From: Natronomonas salina
GTDB taxonomy: Archaea; Halobacteriota; Halobacteria; Halobacteriales; Haloarculaceae
Reading direction: 5' to 3'
Assembly (NCBI RefSeq): GCF_013391105.1
Contig: NZ_CP058335.1
Location: forward strand, 744,001 to 808,000
Length of the DNA: 64,000 nt
Below are positions 19,146 to 49,837 of the stretch, one piece after another. Within the stretch, counting starts at the first letter, position 1. Each line of letters opens with the position of its first letter. The position numbers were made by a program, and so were the translations under genes. The notes below the pieces were generated by a model. It searched no databases, was not told where the DNA came from, and worked only from the letters and a program-made list of their open reading frames with translations.

Positions 19146-19345
19146 TTACTGGTCTTCGGACTGCTTGGCCACACACCACTCGAAGATCTCCTGCTTCAAG
19201 TCGTCCGGCGTCTCCCCAAACAGACACCCGAGCCTATACCCCACTCCGACACTCGATGTACTTGGACGATGCACGGCTACAAATCGGCCGCTGTCGGCTC
19301 CATGGTAATCGAGTGGAAGAAAGATGGACTCGCCGGGGCTTCGTC
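19146..19345 (-). pseudogene. Possible gene fragment at the left integration boundary
   Basis: A 66-codon frame on the minus strand without an ATG runs from the attachment repeat to a TAA at 19146-19148. Its last part (GETPDDLKQEIFEWCVAKQ) reads like a real protein C-terminus. It may be the tail of a gene cut by an integration or deletion. No family recognised; the small size makes chance possible. Confidence 0.3.
19323..19337. repeat. Left attachment repeat (attL) of the integrated region
   Basis: gatggactcgccggg is identical to 36754-36768, which covers the last bases of the tRNA-Ala gene, and 13 of these bases recur at 34882. It lies 78 bases from the end of the integrase gene at 19415, the usual place for attL. 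Confidence 0.8.
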
Positions 19346-19414: not shown

Positions 19415-20491
19415 CTATTCCTCCTCGAGAAACTCTCGTCGGATCTCCATCTTCTCGCGCTCTGTCCGCTCGTCGTAGTGCTGATCGAGCACGTCGCTCG
19501 AGACGTTCGAGCGGTCCGACACCACCTCCTGGGGCGTCCCATTCCGAAGGTGGTCCGTGATCGCCCCACGGCGGATACCGTGCGGCGAGCGAGACGACGG
19601 GCAGCCGGCGCGCTTCCCGTGGCTCCGATAGGAGCACGTCTCGGGATCTTTGTTGTGCGGGCAGCCGCCGACCTCGCACGGCTGGGTAACGCGGTAGATC
19701 GTCTCGCGGATCGACCCGTCGCTGAGTCGGCCCTGTGAGCTCGTGATCAGTGGGCGTCGCCCGTGGTCGTCGGTGACCGAATCGCGGTTGTGCTGGAGGT
19801 AGTCCTCCAGGACGCTACAGTAGTACGAGCCGACGGCGATCGACCGCTCCGCCGCGGCCTTGTTCTTTAGAGGTGTCCCGCTCTCCGGCCGGTGCCGGAG
19901 GTCGAGACACCGCGCGTCGGAATCGAAGTCGTCGACGTCGAGCGCGCGGAGCGTCCCGAGCCGGATGCCGGTATGCCAGAGGACCGCGACGACAACGTGG
20001 TCGCGGCTGGCGTACGAGAATTGCTCGAGGTGCTCGAGGATCTCGTCGGCGCGCGCGGCGTCGAGGTGCTCGTCACGCGCCTCGTCCTCGGGCTCGATAT
20101 CGGGGAGCTGGACGCGCTCGCGCATCCCGGGCTCGACGGCGTCGATCGCCGCGCAGAACTCGAGAAACACACGGAACGTCTGGAGCTCGCCGCGGAGCGT
20201 CACGGTCTTCACTTCTTTGCTCCGCCAGACGCGGTACCGGTGGATGTCGCGACCGGTGAGCGCGTTCATGTCGTCGAGATCGTGGCGACTACAGAACTCG
20301 AGGAATTGATCGAGTCGGTAGCGCTGGTTCTGGAGAGATTTCTCTGAGAGTTCGGGGTCGCGTTCGGCGAGGTACCACTCCACGGCCTCGGCAGGCGTCG
20401 TGGGTTCGAGTCCATCGCTCATAGAACCCCGATGCCCGTCTCTCGCCGCGCTGGGAAAGGTACTTCGCCGCTCGTCGCTCTCACTGCTCAT
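19415..20491 (-). CDS. Tyrosine-type site-specific integrase (unit A)
   Basis: A 358-residue recombinase that inserts and excises the element by breaking DNA with a catalytic Tyr. A SAM-like N-terminal core-binding domain (about 30-130) precedes the catalytic domain: Arg177 (WHTGIR), Lys209 (TPLK), His304 and Arg307 (SPHGIR) and nucleophile Tyr339 (LDQHYD) are all present. Four cysteines (272, 277, 286, 297) form a zinc-knuckle-like insert before the HxxR box. The ATG overlaps the TAA of the upstream small gene, fixing the start. It resembles the SNJ2-type integrases of haloarchaeal pleolipovirus-like elements, which use short repeats in tRNA genes (established for that family; assignment inferred). 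Confidence 0.93.
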   Translation of the reverse strand: MSSESDERRSTFPSAARDGHRGSMSDGLEPTTPAEAVEWYLAERDPELSEKSLQNQRYRLDQFLEFCSRHDLDDMNALTGRDIHRYRVWRSKEVKTVTLRGELQTFRVFLEFCAAIDAVEPGMRERVQLPDIEPEDEARDEHLDAARADEILEHLEQFSYASRDHVVVAVLWHTGIRLGTLRALDVDDFDSDARCLDLRHRPESGTPLKNKAAAERSIAVGSYYCSVLEDYLQHNRDSVTDDHGRRPLITSSQGRLSDGSIRETIYRVTQPCEVGGCPHNKDPETCSYRSHGKRAGCPSSRSPHGIRRGAITDHLRNGTPQEVVSDRSNVSSDVLDQHYDERTEREKMEIRREFLEEE

Positions 20492-30242: not shown

Positions 30243-30505
30243 GACGGATCACACTCCACGGGTAACTCCCGGTCAGCATCGATCCACGGCGGCACGTCCG
30301 CTCGCGGCACGAAGAACTCGAAGACCTCCGTCCGCAACACGCAGACGTCCGACTCGCGCTCCTCCTCGAAGTCACCGAGCCCGCCCTCGAACCCGTTCGC
30401 GAGCGCATCCTCCAGGTACCGTCGCACCCAGCGCCGCGCGTCCGACGCCTCCTTGTCGATCGACTCGAGCACCGTCTCCGCATCGACGTCCGAGACCTGC
30501 GTCAT
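30239..30505 (-). CDS. Unrecognised 88-residue acidic protein
   Basis: Helical N-terminal half (VLESIDKEASDARRWVRRYL) and a strand-rich C-terminal half (VCVLRTEVFEFFVPR). The ATG at 30505 overlaps the stop of the upstream gene (ATGA); the longer upstream frame is the same DNA read inside the neighbour. No family recognised. Confidence 0.68.
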   Translation of the reverse strand: MTQVSDVDAETVLESIDKEASDARRWVRRYLEDALANGFEGGLGDFEEERESDVCVLRTEVFEFFVPRADVPPWIDADRELPVECDPS

Positions 30506-30783
30506 GGCTCCTCGTCCTCCTCTAGCAGTTGATCCACCTTCTCGCCGAGCTCCTCCAGGTCGCGGTCCGTCGTCACCTGCCGACGCACGTTGACCGAGTA
30601 GGCGAGCGCCCGAATCCACTTGATCCGCACCTTCTCGTTCTCCGGATCGTACACCCGCCCGCTCTCCACCTTCCGTCGCGCCTCCTCGATCGCGACGTCC
30701 AGGTCATCCAGCATCGCCTCGTAGTCCTCCAACCGACGCGGCTCCTCGTCGCCTCCCGCGCCTGCGCTCGCGTTGCCGCTCAC
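30502..30783 (-). CDS. First gene of the small acidic chain (93 residues)
   Basis: A helical, charged protein with GTG start: a disordered Gly/Ala leader, then two long helices (DYEAMLDDLDVAIEEARRKV and RDLEELGEKVDQLLEED). Resembles short coiled-coil proteins of haloarchaeal plasmids (DUF8136-like, from memory only). The spacer 30784-30925 upstream holds the likely promoter of the whole chain. Confidence 0.7.
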   Translation of the reverse strand: MSGNASAGAGGDEEPRRLEDYEAMLDDLDVAIEEARRKVESGRVYDPENEKVRIKWIRALAYSVNVRRQVTTDRDLEELGEKVDQLLEEDEEP

Positions 30784-30925: not shown

Positions 30926-31174
30926 TCAGCCGTCCGATTTCAGGGATTTCAGCCCCATTCGGAGGACGTCGACGTCGTCCAGGAGGTGTTTGTGCGTCCC
31001 GCAGTACGGGATGCCAGGGATCGCGTCGTGTTGGCAGCGGTCGCCGGTAGAGTCCGCGTATGCCTCGCACCGATTCTCGTCGGTGCTTGTCGACGTGGTG
31101 AACTCGTCGAGCGGGAGCTGTCGCTCCTCGGCGGCCACGTCGACGGCCCCCGAGTCCGAGTGCTTACCCGCCAT
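30926..31174 (-). CDS. Small zinc-binding protein after the helicase
   Basis: An 82-residue protein with a zinc motif of the form C..C..C..H (RCEAYADSTGDRCQH followed by IPYCGTHKH). The ATG at 31174 lies 11 bases inside the end of the helicase gene, so it is the last gene of the replication operon. The likely role is nucleic-acid or protein binding in replication of the element. Confidence 0.72.
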   Translation of the reverse strand: MAGKHSDSGAVDVAAEERQLPLDEFTTSTSTDENRCEAYADSTGDRCQHDAIPGIPYCGTHKHLLDDVDVLRMGLKSLKSDG

Positions 31175-34100
31175 GCGGGGGTGATCTATCCCCCGGCGGC
31201 TGGCCGCCATCGGTCGCGACCTCCTCGATCGGGGGTTCGTCCGTGTCGTCGCCGTCGTTCGCGCCGAAGTTCATGAACTCCCACGTATAGAGACTACTAC
31301 GTGCCAGTTCACGAACCTCGTCAGCGCCGAGATCGTCGAGAGAGACGCCCTCAAGCTCGACGTCGCCGTGTTCGTTGAGCCGGGCGACGCCACCGTCCCG
31401 CCAGACGACGCGTCGACCGTCGGTGTCGTCTTGGTGGCGCTCGAGCACGCCGAGATCCGCGCGGAGTGTCTCGAGGTGGTCGAACACCTGTCGTTTCCCG
31501 ACGTCGACCCCAGGGTGGGCGGCGATCTCAGCGGACGTGGCGGCGCCGAGGTCGCTGAGGGCGTCGATCACCTGTCGGAGGCCGTCGCTCCAGGTGGAGA
31601 GCACGCGGCCTTCGCCGGCGGTGGGCACCCAGTCGGGCAGCGTGTTGGTGTGGATGTAGACGGCGGCACCGTTGCCGTCGCGCCCGAAGCGCATCGCTGC
31701 CTGGAGGGTCTGATGCTCGCGCATATGGGTGAGGATCTCGTCGCCGACGTCGCCGTAGGAGAGGTCGGCGCCTTTCTCGTCGTTCCGCTCGACGGACTCG
31801 CCGTCGTAGGCGGCCCATTTCTTGATGAAGCCGTCGCCGTAGTGCGTGGAGCCGATGATCGCGCCGACGCGCTTCGATCCGAACTCGTTGCTCCCGAGGA
31901 CGTTCCCGTGGTAGGCGGTGCCGTCGGTGAGCGCGTTGACGTCGACGGCGTCGCTGGCGTCGTATTCGTGGAGCGCGGTGCTCGACGTGATCAGCCCGGG
32001 GGCTTCGCCGTGGTCCTCTTGGATGGCTTCGAGGAGCGCGGCGTCCTGCTCGATGCTGACGTAATCGGGGTTGTTGTAGGGTTTGACGGCGTCCGTCGTT
32101 GGGACGAGCTGGAGGCCGAGGCCGTCTTGGATGTACTCGCGGCGCTCGCTCTCGGAGAGCACCGGGCGGTGATGGAGCCGGGGGGCGCCGAGTGCCCGTC
32201 GCCACATGCGGAGCGTGGGGGTGCCGTCGAGCCCGACGACACCGCGCGTGTACTCCAGCGCCGGGGGATCGAGGAGTCGGAGGGTGCCTTGCTCGCGGTT
32301 GTAGACGGCGCTCGCGTTCTCGAGGTCGTCGACGTCGGCGCTGGAGAGGTCGGTGTGCTCCCAGCCGTTCCCGAGGTCGTCGCTGGCGAGCAGTGCGAAC
32401 GTCGCGATTGGCGCGGCGGCGTGGCCGGCCTGTCCGGCGAACACCTCGTCGGGATCGCGTCGGAGCGCGCCCTCGTCGAGGAACCAGGCGAGCGCGTCGG
32501 CGCGGTCGGCGTCGTCTCGCCGGCGCTCGATCAGGTCGGTGTAGTCGCTGTATGGGAGCTCGTCGTGGCGCTGGAGGAACTGGGTGACGGCGCCCTGGAG
32601 TCGCCCGCCGAGTTCGGTCTCGTAGGCGCTCGCGGGGAACTCGTCGAACACGATCGTTCGGCCCTCGCTGACTTTCGGTTTGTGAGCGTGCGCGTAGTGT
32701 CCGATGAGGACGTCGATCCGCTCGCCGTCCTCGCCGTCGCTATCCGGGTCGAAGTCCCATTTGTGGGCGTACTCGCAATCGTGGGGCTGGCCGTCCTCCG
32801 TGGCCTAACAGGGGAGTGGGCGGCCGAGTTCCTGTTCGGCGTACTTGTGGATGTCCTGAGGGGTGGCGCCGCGGCGGTACCAGTCGAGGACGCGCTCTTG
32901 CCAGTCGTCGCCGTGGTCGCCTCTCGCGGTCGGGCAGTCGTGGGTGAACGCGGGGAGCGTCTTATGGGTGAGGCCCTGCTCGTCGCACCACTGCTCGAAT
33001 TGCTCGTATTGCTCTTTGCGGCCGCGGCCGGTGAGGACGCTGATCGGCTCGTCGGTCGCGGCGGCCGCGCGGATCGTGCCGCTGCTCTTTCCGAGCGTCG
33101 GGAGCGCCTCAACGAGGACGCGCTCGTCGTACGTGTCGAGGGCGTGCTCGAGAACGTCCTGTGTCCGTGCTCTCGCGGCCGTGAGGGGGTCCTCCTGCTC
33201 GTCGTCGGTCGGGCCGGCCTCCCAGTCCCAGACGTTCCGCTCGGCCCGCTCCCGGGGCGTGTCGGGGAGGATGGCGACGTGCTCGACGTCGTCGCCGTCG
33301 TCGACGTACTCGGGGATGTCGAAGCCGAGGCCGCGGAGGTGCTCGACGCCCTCCCACCACAGCGAGCCGCGGGCATCCGAGGGTGCGGCGCCGCGGTCGG
33401 AGAGTTCGCCGGCGTGGATGAGCGCCATGACGACGGGGCCACCGTAACCGCCGCGGCTCCCGGTGTCCTGCCAGATCTGGTCGTCGACGACGTTCGCCGT
33501 TCCGTTGTCGCTGGGACTCCCCCAGGTGGGGATGAACGCGCGTTTCCCGCGGCTCGTCGAGGCGTCGTCGTTCCAGGACCCGACGATCGTGCGGTCGGCG
33601 ACGCGGCGGGCATCGAGCCGATCGAGCGCGGCGAAGACGTCGCGGATGTCGTCGGTTGTCTCGCTGCTGGTCGTCGTCGACGGCTCGTAGTTCTCGAGGT
33701 CAAAGCGCTCGCGGGCGGCTTCGACGTCCGGGCGAGAGTCGGGGAGCTGTCCCTGCTCGTCGAGAAGGGACTCCAGGGCGTCGGCGTCCCACTCCCGAAT
33801 CTCGGTCGGCGTCCCGGGGACGTGCTCGCCGGTCGCGACGCACACCCGCTTACCGGCGTAGATCTCGATCGAGGGTAGGTCGTCGTCGTTCGCGCCCCAG
33901 GGCTCGTCGTCGAGCTCCCAGGCAGCTTGCTTGACGCCGTCGGGGAGTTCACCGCGGTACTGAGCGTGAACGCCGGCGCCGCTCTGGGAGACGTCGGCAT
34001 ACGTGGCGCCGAGCTGCTCGAGGGCGTCGATGAACGCGGGATGGACGGCGCCGGTCTCGGGACACCGGACGTCGTCGCCGTCGACGTAGGCGTAGGGGTC

Positions 34101-34604
34101 GCTCTCCTGCTGGAGGAACGCGCGGCCGTCCAGCCGGTGATCGTCCTCAGCGAGTGCGACGGTCTCGCCGTCACGGTAGAGGTCGGTGATGCCCCACTTC
34201 CAGCGGGCGTCCTCGTCGGAGTCGGCGTCGGGGTGATCGCGGTCGCCCCACGGCGCGAACGGCTTCTTGTCGACGTGACCCATCCATTGCTCGCGCTCGA
34301 GGAGTTCCGTCGGCCACACTCCCGGGGTGGGGTTGCTAAAGTCGGCGTCGCGCCAGATGCACCCTGCGCGATTACGACTATTATCGTCCGATGTGACAGC
34401 ATCGTCGTCGTTCTCCGGAGTTGTCGCCCCGTCGCCCTCTTGCGTTTCAGTCTCGTTATCTATTCCATCGGAGGGGTTCTCGGATGGGGACTCGTCGGGC
34501 GGACTGACATTTTTCGAGCCTCTGGGAATGCAGTCCTCGCAGAGATACCCGTTCCCGAAGGGCTCGAAGCCGGGCGATCCGCACCGGAAGCAGTCGCCCG
34601 TCAT
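31164..34604 (-). CDS. PrimPol-type primase fused to a helicase, split by one in-frame TAG
   Basis: Read through one amber codon (32805-32807, codon 600) this is a 1146-codon replication protein. Order: an N-terminal zinc ribbon (CFRCGSPGF...YLCEDC), a primase-polymerase-like domain (about 75-300; YADVSQSGAGVHAQYRGELP, then the metal-site strand DLPSIEIYAGKRVCVATGEH), a linker, Walker A-like LPTLGKSS near 501, Walker B VFDEF near 652, motif III-like GLDGTPT and motif VI-like LQAAMRFGRDG, then a C-terminal winged helix. Motifs I and II lie on opposite sides of the stop in one unbroken frame, so the gene was once whole. Without readthrough, 599 residues are made and the helicase is lost. ATGA overlap fixes the start at 34604. 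Confidence 0.85.
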
Positions 34605-34708
34605 GCTCGACACCTCCCGTCATCGAGCGCCGGGCAGCGCTTCTCGGCCTCGTCGATCTCGCACCCGCAGTATTCGCAGATTGGGCGCTCGGGGTCGACG
34701 AGACTCAC
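34601..34708 (-). CDS. 35-residue zinc-finger protein leading the replication operon
   Basis: GTG start preceded on the minus strand by GAGGTG, a plausible ribosome binding site about 6 bases away. The product has CEYCGCEIDEAEKRC, a small zinc knuckle. Its TGA overlaps the primase ATG (ATGA). Too short for family assignment. Confidence 0.6.
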   Translation of the reverse strand: MSLVDPERPICEYCGCEIDEAEKRCPALDDGRCRA

Positions 34709-34881: not shown

Positions 34882-34913
34882 TGGACTCGCCGGGATTTGA
34901 GACCCGGGGCCTC
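34882..34913. repeat. Middle attachment repeat (partial tRNA-Ala copy)
   Basis: tggactcgccgggatttga matches 36756-36774 of the tRNA-Ala gene exactly; after one inserted g, acccggggcctc continues the match. This 31-base tRNA 3'-end copy marks the border between the two integrated units. Confidence 0.88.
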
Positions 34914-35085: not shown

Positions 35086-36084
35086 ATGCTCGAACCAATC
35101 TCACCACGACGGGCGAAGGAACTGTACCTCGAAGACCGCACTGACCTCAGTGCGACATCGAAGCAAAACCACGGATATCGCGTAGAACGGTTCGTGGAGT
35201 GGTGCGAGGAGAACGACCTCGACAATCTCAACGACCTCAGTGGACGGAATCTCCACGAGTTCAAGGTCTGGCGAGCGCAGGACGTGAACAACGTCACGCT
35301 CCAAAACCAGCTCGGGACCGTCCGACAGTTCCTCGATTTCTGCGAGAGAATCGACGCGGTGCCGAGTGGATTAAGCGGGAAGGTCGAACTCCCTCAACTC
35401 GGGATGAACGAGGACGTGAGCGACGCGGCCATCTCACCCGAGGAAGCCGACGCGATTCTGGACTACCTCGACAAGTACGAGTACGCAACACTTCGGCACG
35501 TCATCTTCTACACGCTCTGGCATACTGGCATCCGAACCAGTACGCTCCGAGCGTTCGACGTGACTGACTTCCACCCCAGTGAGGGCTACATCAAGGCGAT
35601 AAATCGGGAATCCACGGGAACGCCGCTGAAGAACCGTGAACGCGGCGAGCGTGAAATCAACCTTGGGGCAGACCTTGTGGAGGTCATTGACGACTGGGTT
35701 CACGACCAGCACCCTCACGTCGAGGATGAGCATGGACGGATGCCACTCATCTGCACGCCCCATGGCCGTGCTCACGAGACGACCATCCGCTCTCACGTCT
35801 ACAAGGTTACGCGCCCCTGCTATTACACGAACAAATGTCCTCACAGCCGCGATATGGCAGAGTGTGAAGCGGTAAACAACGGGAAGGCCAGCCGGTGTCC
35901 ATCCTCCGTAAGTCCCCACGCGATTCGCAAAGGGTCGATAACTTACCATCGAAACAAAGGCTGGCCGGTCGAGGCGGTCAGTGATAGAGCGGATGTGAGT
36001 AAGGAGGTACTGGACAAACACTACGACAAGGCGTCAATCACCGAGAAGCGCGAAAGGCGGACAGAGTTCCTCGATAGGTTGTAG
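35086..36084 (+). CDS. Tyrosine-type site-specific integrase (unit B)
   Basis: A 332-residue recombinase of the same family as the one at 19415. N-terminal SAM-like domain, then the catalytic set: Arg in WHTGIRTS, Lys in TPLKNR, His and Arg in SPHAIRKG and the nucleophile Tyr in LDKHYDK. The Cys insert (PCYYTNKCPHSRDMAEC and SRCPSS) is also conserved. The gene is intact. It points toward the tRNA-Ala gene, whose 3' end is its likely target. Unit B has no visible replication gene, so it may depend on unit A or be a reduced element (inference). Confidence 0.93.
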   Translation: MLEPISPRRAKELYLEDRTDLSATSKQNHGYRVERFVEWCEENDLDNLNDLSGRNLHEFKVWRAQDVNNVTLQNQLGTVRQFLDFCERIDAVPSGLSGKVELPQLGMNEDVSDAAISPEEADAILDYLDKYEYATLRHVIFYTLWHTGIRTSTLRAFDVTDFHPSEGYIKAINRESTGTPLKNRERGEREINLGADLVEVIDDWVHDQHPHVEDEHGRMPLICTPHGRAHETTIRSHVYKVTRPCYYTNKCPHSRDMAECEAVNNGKASRCPSSVSPHAIRKGSITYHRNKGWPVEAVSDRADVSKEVLDKHYDKASITEKRERRTEFLDRL

Positions 36085-36755: not shown

Positions 36756-36827
36756 TGGACTCGCCGGGATTTGAACCCGGGGCCTCTCCCATGCCAAGGG
36801 AGTGATCTACCGCTGATCTACGAGCCC
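36756..36827 (-). tRNA. tRNA-Ala (GGC anticodon), integration target
   Basis: A 72-base tRNA on the minus strand: acceptor GGGCTCG pairs with CGAGTCC (one G-U), D-stem GATC/GATC, anticodon stem CTCCC/GGGAG around loop TTGGCAT (anticodon GGC, alanine), T-stem CCGGG/CCCGG with TTCAAAT, discriminator A. CCA is not encoded. Its 3' end is the repeated att core, and the gene is intact after integration, as for most tRNA-targeted elements. Confidence 0.96.
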
Positions 36828-37018: not shown

Positions 37019-37435
37019 ATGAGTACAGAGCAGGAGCAGCGGACGATCCGGTGTCTAGTCGCGAAGGTCGGCCTCGACGGCCACGACCGCGGCGCCCACG
37101 TCATCGCCCGGGCGTTCCGCGACGCTGGCTTCGAAGTCATCTACTCGGGGCTGCACAAAGCACCCGACGAGATCGTCCAGGCAGCCGTTCAGGAGGACGT
37201 CGACGTCCTCGGGATCTCCATCCTTTCTGGCGCCCACGACACGCTCGTCCCGAAGGTCATGGATGGTCTGAAAGAGTACGGCGCCTTCGAGGACACGCTC
37301 ATCCTCGTGGGGGGCATCATCCCAGAGGAGGACCGCGAGGAGCTCTACGAGCTGGGCGTCTCCGAGATCTTCGGGCCCGGCGCCTCCATGCAGGAGACCA
37401 TCGACTTCGTCCGCGAGAACGCCCCAGAGCGATAG
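37019..37435 (+). CDS. Methylmalonyl-CoA mutase B12-binding subunit
   Basis: A 138-residue cobalamin-binding subunit that, with a separate catalytic large subunit not in this window, interconverts methylmalonyl-CoA and succinyl-CoA. The DxHxxG motif that carries the B12-ligating His is present (GLDGHDRGAHVIARAF), and the Rossmann-like SILSGAH and VGGIIPEED loops follow. Archaeal mutases are commonly split in this way. A TTAGAGT box about 30 bases upstream supports the ATG at 37019. The stop is directly followed by the meaB gene, its usual partner. Confidence 0.95.
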   Translation: MSTEQEQRTIRCLVAKVGLDGHDRGAHVIARAFRDAGFEVIYSGLHKAPDEIVQAAVQEDVDVLGISILSGAHDTLVPKVMDGLKEYGAFEDTLILVGGIIPEEDREELYELGVSEIFGPGASMQETIDFVRENAPER

Positions 37436-49042: not shown

Positions 49043-49837
49043 ATGATTCCCATCGACGACACCCCGCTGTGCCGGGACGGGAAGGTTCTCATCCTCGCGT
49101 ACGACCACGGCCTCGAACACGGCCCGGTCGACTTCGACGCGGTACCGGAGAGCGCCGATCCCGAGCGGACCTTCGAGGCGGCGACCCACCCCGCGGTCAC
49201 GTCCGTCGCGGTCCAGAAGGGCCTCGCCGAGGCCTACTACCCGAGCTACCAGGACGAGGTCGACCTGCTGATGAAGCTCAACGGCACGTCGAACCTCTGG
49301 ATGGGCGAACCCGATTCGGCGGTCAACTGCACCGTCGACTACGCGGCCGAGGTCGGCGCGTCGGCCGTCGGCTTCACGCTCTACGGCGGCTCCAACCACG
49401 AGATCGAGATGGCCGAGGAGTTCCGCGACGCCCAGGAGCAGGCCCGCGAACACGACCTCCCGGTCGTCATGTGGTCCTACCCGCGCGGGCAGGGCCTCAA
49501 GAACGACACGAAGCCGTCGACCATCTCCTACGCCGCGCGCCTCGCCCTCGAGCTCGGTGCCGACGTCGCGAAGGTCAAGCACCCCGGCAGCCAGTCGGCG
49601 ATGGAGGACGCCGTCCGGATGGCCGGCCCGACGAAGGTCGTCATGTCCGGCGGCTCGAAGACGACCGACCGCGACTTCCTCGAGAGCGTCAAGGAGACCA
49701 TCGACGCCGGCGGGAAGGGCCTCGCGGTCGGCCGGAACGTCTGGCAGCGCGAGGACCCGACGAAGATCCTCGACGCCCTCGAGCAGGTCATCTTCGAGGA
49801 GGCCAGCGTCGACGAGGCGCTCTCGGCGGCCGAATAG
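49043..49837 (+). CDS. Class I fructose-bisphosphate aldolase (DhnA family)
   Basis: A 264-residue TIM-barrel Schiff-base aldolase. The Schiff-base Lys is in GADVAKVKHPG, with the phosphate-binding VMSGGSKTTDRDF and AVGRNVWQREDP near the C-terminus and an N-terminal AYDHGLEHGP. Archaeal members cleave or form fructose-1,6-bisphosphate; close relatives make 2-amino-3,7-dideoxyheptulosonate for aromatic amino acids. The gene directly after it is fructose-bisphosphatase, which favours the sugar role here. Confidence 0.9.
   Translation: MIPIDDTPLCRDGKVLILAYDHGLEHGPVDFDAVPESADPERTFEAATHPAVTSVAVQKGLAEAYYPSYQDEVDLLMKLNGTSNLWMGEPDSAVNCTVDYAAEVGASAVGFTLYGGSNHEIEMAEEFRDAQEQAREHDLPVVMWSYPRGQGLKNDTKPSTISYAARLALELGADVAKVKHPGSQSAMEDAVRMAGPTKVVMSGGSKTTDRDFLESVKETIDAGGKGLAVGRNVWQREDPTKILDALEQVIFEEASVDEALSAAE

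Follow-up and report, generated by a model that had tools for sequence, protein, structure and literature searches.

A primase-helicase gene of Natronomonas salina interrupted by an in-frame TAG: probably a recent nonsense mutation in an integrated plasmid-like element

Small haloarchaeal plasmids can encode large proteins that are probable replication primase-helicases, as in Halorientalis litorea (8.9 kb, WP_247010820.1), Halomarina sp. BCD28 (10.8 kb, WP_254538944.1) and halophilic archaeon DL31 (phalar02, Halar_0011). In the 64,000-nucleotide stretch of Natronomonas salina DNA analysed here (the window), we located a gene that shares with these three proteins a helicase half (58–60% identity), the LPC-x-C region and the form of one long open reading frame (ORF). 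However, the plasmid proteins are uninterrupted and carry Gln where the window has a TAG, and the N-terminal part of the Halomarina and DL31 proteins does not match that of the window. The phage NrS-1 PrimPol (PDB 6a9w and others) and the DNA primase in PDB 7ola resemble the window’s protein in the primase domain only; the helicase half, unlike the primase domain, has no sequence match among solved structures. A further comparison is offered by the pyrrolysine (UAG) genes of methanogens, in which an in-frame UAG is likewise followed by conserved coding sequence, although here no pyrrolysyl-tRNA synthetase was detected in the genome, the stop is unconserved and the residue replaced is Gln.

The split frame lies on the minus strand (window 34613–31164) and starts at GTG 34613 or ATG 34604. 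Counted from the ATG, 599 codons are followed by the TAG at codon 600, in the context CCC TGT TAG GCC and outside any homopolymer, and the same frame then continues for 546 sense codons to a TAA at 31166–31164. An earlier note on this DNA had described a single frame cut by an in-frame amber codon without giving a strand; the stop and its continuation were found as described on the minus strand, and the plus-strand reading of 31164–34604 was discarded, as the frame is absent there. The parts of the gene are as follows:

32805..34613, minus strand: 5′ part of the primase-helicase gene, with the primase domain and the start of the ATPase including Walker A, ending at the premature TAG
32805..32807, minus strand: premature in-frame TAG, codon 600, Gln (CAG/CAA) in close relatives
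31164..32804, minus strand: 3′ part of the primase-helicase gene, with Walker B, a motif VI-like segment and a C-terminal winged-helix-like region, ending in TAA

In one frame, both halves align over their full length with the same set of relatives, and their GC3 is alike (0.865 in the 5′ half, 0.870 in the 3′ half), so the arrangement is not a chance continuation. At the sequence level both halves read as one primase-helicase, and the earlier proposal that one enzyme spans the stop is borne out by their matches to the same continuous relatives.

An AEP/PrimPol-type primase domain occupies approximately residues 87–300, as assigned from profile matches together with catalytic motifs. The N-terminal half matches a PHROG DNA primase profile (1.8e-7), while a profile built from five members retrieved the NrS-1 phage primase and the DNA primase 7ola from the PDB at E of about 1e-10 (NrS-1 about 5e-11) over residues of about 150–300. 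In the five-member alignment the primase motifs (acidic DxD, SxSGxGxH and E.Y..TG) are represented by the invariant D175/D177, S208-G209-G211-H213 and E247/Y249. All the ATPase motifs named in the earlier note are likewise present and contain residues invariant in the same alignment: Walker A, LPTLGKSS (residues 501–508; G505, K506 and S507), lies 5′ of the stop, and Walker B, VFDEF (652–656; D654 and E655), and the motif VI-like QAAMRFGRD (968–976, within LQAAMRFGRDG; Q968, R972 and R975) lie 3′ of it. With Walker A, Walker B and motif VI in one chain, the C-terminal part would be a candidate superfamily 2-like helicase; searches of this half against Pfam, NCBIfam and the PDB gave no helicase match. 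An AlphaFold model of the read-through protein reached a mean pLDDT of only 30.5 and was set aside. Also invariant in the five members are three cysteines located between the two Walker motifs (557, 599 and 610; window 32775–32936, minus strand); as a guess, they might bind a metal or an Fe-S cluster, recalling such a site in SF2 helicases.

To place the stop among homologues, as the earlier note had proposed, relatives were aligned across the junction; they run continuously, and the close ones have Gln at codon 600. The search returned 75 matching frames, a count that includes the window’s own halves (four frames) and several relatives twice. Fifty-one fetched frames (some representing the same gene twice) cross residue 600 in one alignment with no stop, and the codon at the junction is a sense codon in every relative in which it could be read, about 40 different sequences in all. 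Every relative with more than 50% identity across the junction has LPC followed by Gln, encoded by CAG or CAA, from which the TAG reads as a single C-to-T transition of an ancestral CAG. More distant relatives carry Gln, Asp, Glu, Asn, Met, Ser or other residues at this position, and never a stop. An order-wide search of 392 genomes found a relative in 104, with an internal TAG at codon 600 in the window only; in those flagged relatives that were read out, the stop falls at the protein end, at the protein start or within a copy that is plainly broken. The stop is thus lineage-specific at a site where intact relatives have a sense codon, the pattern of a nonsense pseudogene. A second isolate of the element was looked for and not found, and the viral contigs searched held no close relative.

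Haloarchaeal plasmids of 8.9, 10.8 and 23.7 kb each have one large protein, and these proteins are among the intact relatives, which makes the primase-helicase most likely the replication protein of a mobile element. The surroundings of the gene contain the following features:

19323..19337, plus strand: probable far attachment site next to the left integrase, 15 nt that repeat the tRNA-Ala 3′ end and flank exactly
19415..20491, minus strand: left-end tyrosine integrase of the element
30502..30783, minus strand: small ORF downstream of the replication gene, 63% identical to the ORF that follows the replication gene of the Halorientalis litorea plasmid (8.9 kb)
34882..34913, plus strand: attachment-site-like stretch of 32 nt, nearly identical to the tRNA-Ala 3′ end
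35086..36084, plus strand: second tyrosine integrase, between the replication gene and tRNA-Ala
36756..36827, minus strand: tRNA-Ala (GGC), probable integration site

The replication gene is therefore flanked by two related tyrosine integrases, and the tRNA-Ala 3′ end occurs in three copies, of which the third (36756–36782) is in the tRNA gene itself. Together, the integrases and the copies suggest one element of 15–17 kb, or two in tandem. Between 29397 and 30252, four similar 48 nt repeats, spaced by 242–308 nt, lie where consecutive small minus-strand ORFs end, which suggests serial duplication of a small gene.

We consider it probable that the interrupted frame is a replication gene of such an integrated plasmid-like element, broken recently by a nonsense mutation while selection on it was relaxed. 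An element resembling a small haloarchaeal plasmid, with its replication primase-helicase, would have integrated at tRNA-Ala, and a C-to-T transition would then have converted CAG (Gln, position 600) to TAG, truncating the protein within its ATPase domain. As the host would copy the element in its chromosome, the element’s own replication protein would be unneeded (and is probably dispensable while integrated at tRNA-Ala), such that a mutation of this kind could drift; the remaining frame would be intact since the mutation is recent. The position of the stop, its Gln ancestry, the unbroken relatives, the single lesion and the ordinary use of TAG are established by the analysis; this account further infers a real mutation and not a sequencing error, relaxed selection following integration, and loss of function.

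The condition of the 3′ half bears on the age of the change. Of the 174 columns downstream of the stop in which six relatives all share one residue, 156 are kept in the window, the same number as in the closest intact relative; of 61 such columns in the ATPase part upstream of the stop, the window keeps 53. The 1146-codon frame carries no second lesion; about 3.1% of single substitutions in the gene yield a stop, so that a further one should on average appear once some 30 neutral changes have accumulated. It follows that either the stop arose recently or the base is in error. A 3′ half without decay is also compatible with misreading of a single base in an intact gene, or with efficient suppression. 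The main rival is a single-base sequencing or assembly error in a gene that is intact with Gln at codon 600; in its favour, the TAG is one substitution from the close relatives’ residue within an otherwise intact and conserved frame. We nevertheless hold such an error to be unlikely, as isolated substitution errors should be rare in a single-contig, 99.8% complete genome and the site is not a homopolymer.

If the UAG were subject to programmed readthrough or suppression, a minor full-length primase-helicase would be made beside an abundant 599-residue primase; the earlier note had raised the option that this sets a primase:primase-helicase ratio. Conservation of the 3′ half to the same degree as in intact relatives would fit, as would a truncated product that would keep the whole primase domain, given that primase-only relatives of about 590 codons occur (L011, L012). 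We regard this explanation as improbable, however, and the ratio proposal is not supported: no relative carries the stop, which sits between Walker A and Walker B inside the ATPase, off the natural border at about residues 435–480, and neither the decoding machinery nor the downstream RNA supports it. The tRNAs were collected with Rfam (41 matches, with some expected tRNAs missing) and their anticodons were read by ARAGORN, which made no call for two of the matches; a CUA anticodon was found in none of the 40 readable tRNAs (39 fetched plus one in the window). Scanning by pattern for CUA anticodon arms gave 13 matches against 14 in the reversed control, and the one match within a tRNA was a tRNA-Arg(TCT) in shifted register. 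The best match in a PylS search scored 31.6 bits against a cut-off of 178, and control genomes that lack PylS also gave sub-cut-off matches; pyrrolysine coding was accordingly rejected. The search suggested earlier thus found no suppressor tRNA within this incomplete tRNA list and no pyrrolysyl-tRNA synthetase above cut-off in the genome. RNA 3′ of the stop is less folded than shuffles (z +1.37), with no stimulating structure and no conserved RNA element, and the archaeal stop readthrough listed in a review is confined to selenocysteine and pyrrolysine (PMC8211752). That a near-cognate tRNA-Gln reads UAG at a useful rate, so that stand-alone primase and full primase-helicase would both be made, seems to us highly improbable. 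Among the options first offered, a nonsense mutation or a base error fits these results; readthrough or suppression is not supported by them.

General reassignment of TAG to Gln was also rejected, because conserved genes end in this codon: PurL, 3-hydroxyacyl-CoA dehydrogenase, an aldolase and the element’s own left integrase are all TAG-ended at their expected length. TAG closes 10 other gene-like frames among the 41 chosen in the window, in agreement with the earlier statement that it is not generally reassigned; the frames cited then (15652, 22813 and 49837) do end in TAG, and at least one of them, 49043–49837 (the aldolase), is a real gene. Two other in-frame TAG continuations, at 37435/37436 and 49837/49838, are not split genes, as each pairs different genes with the TAG directly followed by ATG. 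These same-frame neighbours are a methylmalonyl-CoA mutase C-terminal domain and MeaB at the former, and the aldolase and a fructose-bisphosphatase at the latter.

The remaining alternative, a functional 599-residue primase plus a separately started helicase, is one to which we give hardly any credence. Stand-alone helicase-type relatives of about 600–650 codons are known, but they start at about residue 460–500 and include Walker A, which in the window lies 5′ of the stop. Primase-only and helicase-only relatives divide before Walker A, 120–165 residues upstream of the stop. The first possible in-frame start after the TAG is the following:

32649..32651, minus strand: first ATG/GTG/TTG after the TAG in frame, GTG 32651, the V of VFDEF (Walker B)

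A restart at this GTG could not give a working ATPase, since the start codon is itself part of Walker B, and reinitiation was rejected on this ground; in its strong form the two-protein reading stands refuted. With the stop between Walker A and Walker B, two separate functional proteins appear very unlikely from the sequence. The refuting case named in the earlier note, in which homologues would be gene pairs whose second member starts directly behind the stop, was examined and is contradicted by their continuity.

For annotation, the two ORFs should be treated as a single interrupted replication gene belonging to an integrated element, and not as evidence of stop-codon recoding. Beyond annotation the case carries little weight, being most likely ordinary gene death (or a sequencing error) and no new decoding trick, although the locus is useful as a negative control in scans for recoded stop codons. 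Elsewhere in the same genome, a second relative (L129, C1:2236389-2239151) of about 30% identity is uninterrupted over 1195 codons and lies near a tRNA-Cys, probably as another integrated element. Other relatives of the primase part are broken as well, namely L162 (G346:C100), by a stop and a frame change, and L014 (G098:C125), by a frame change.
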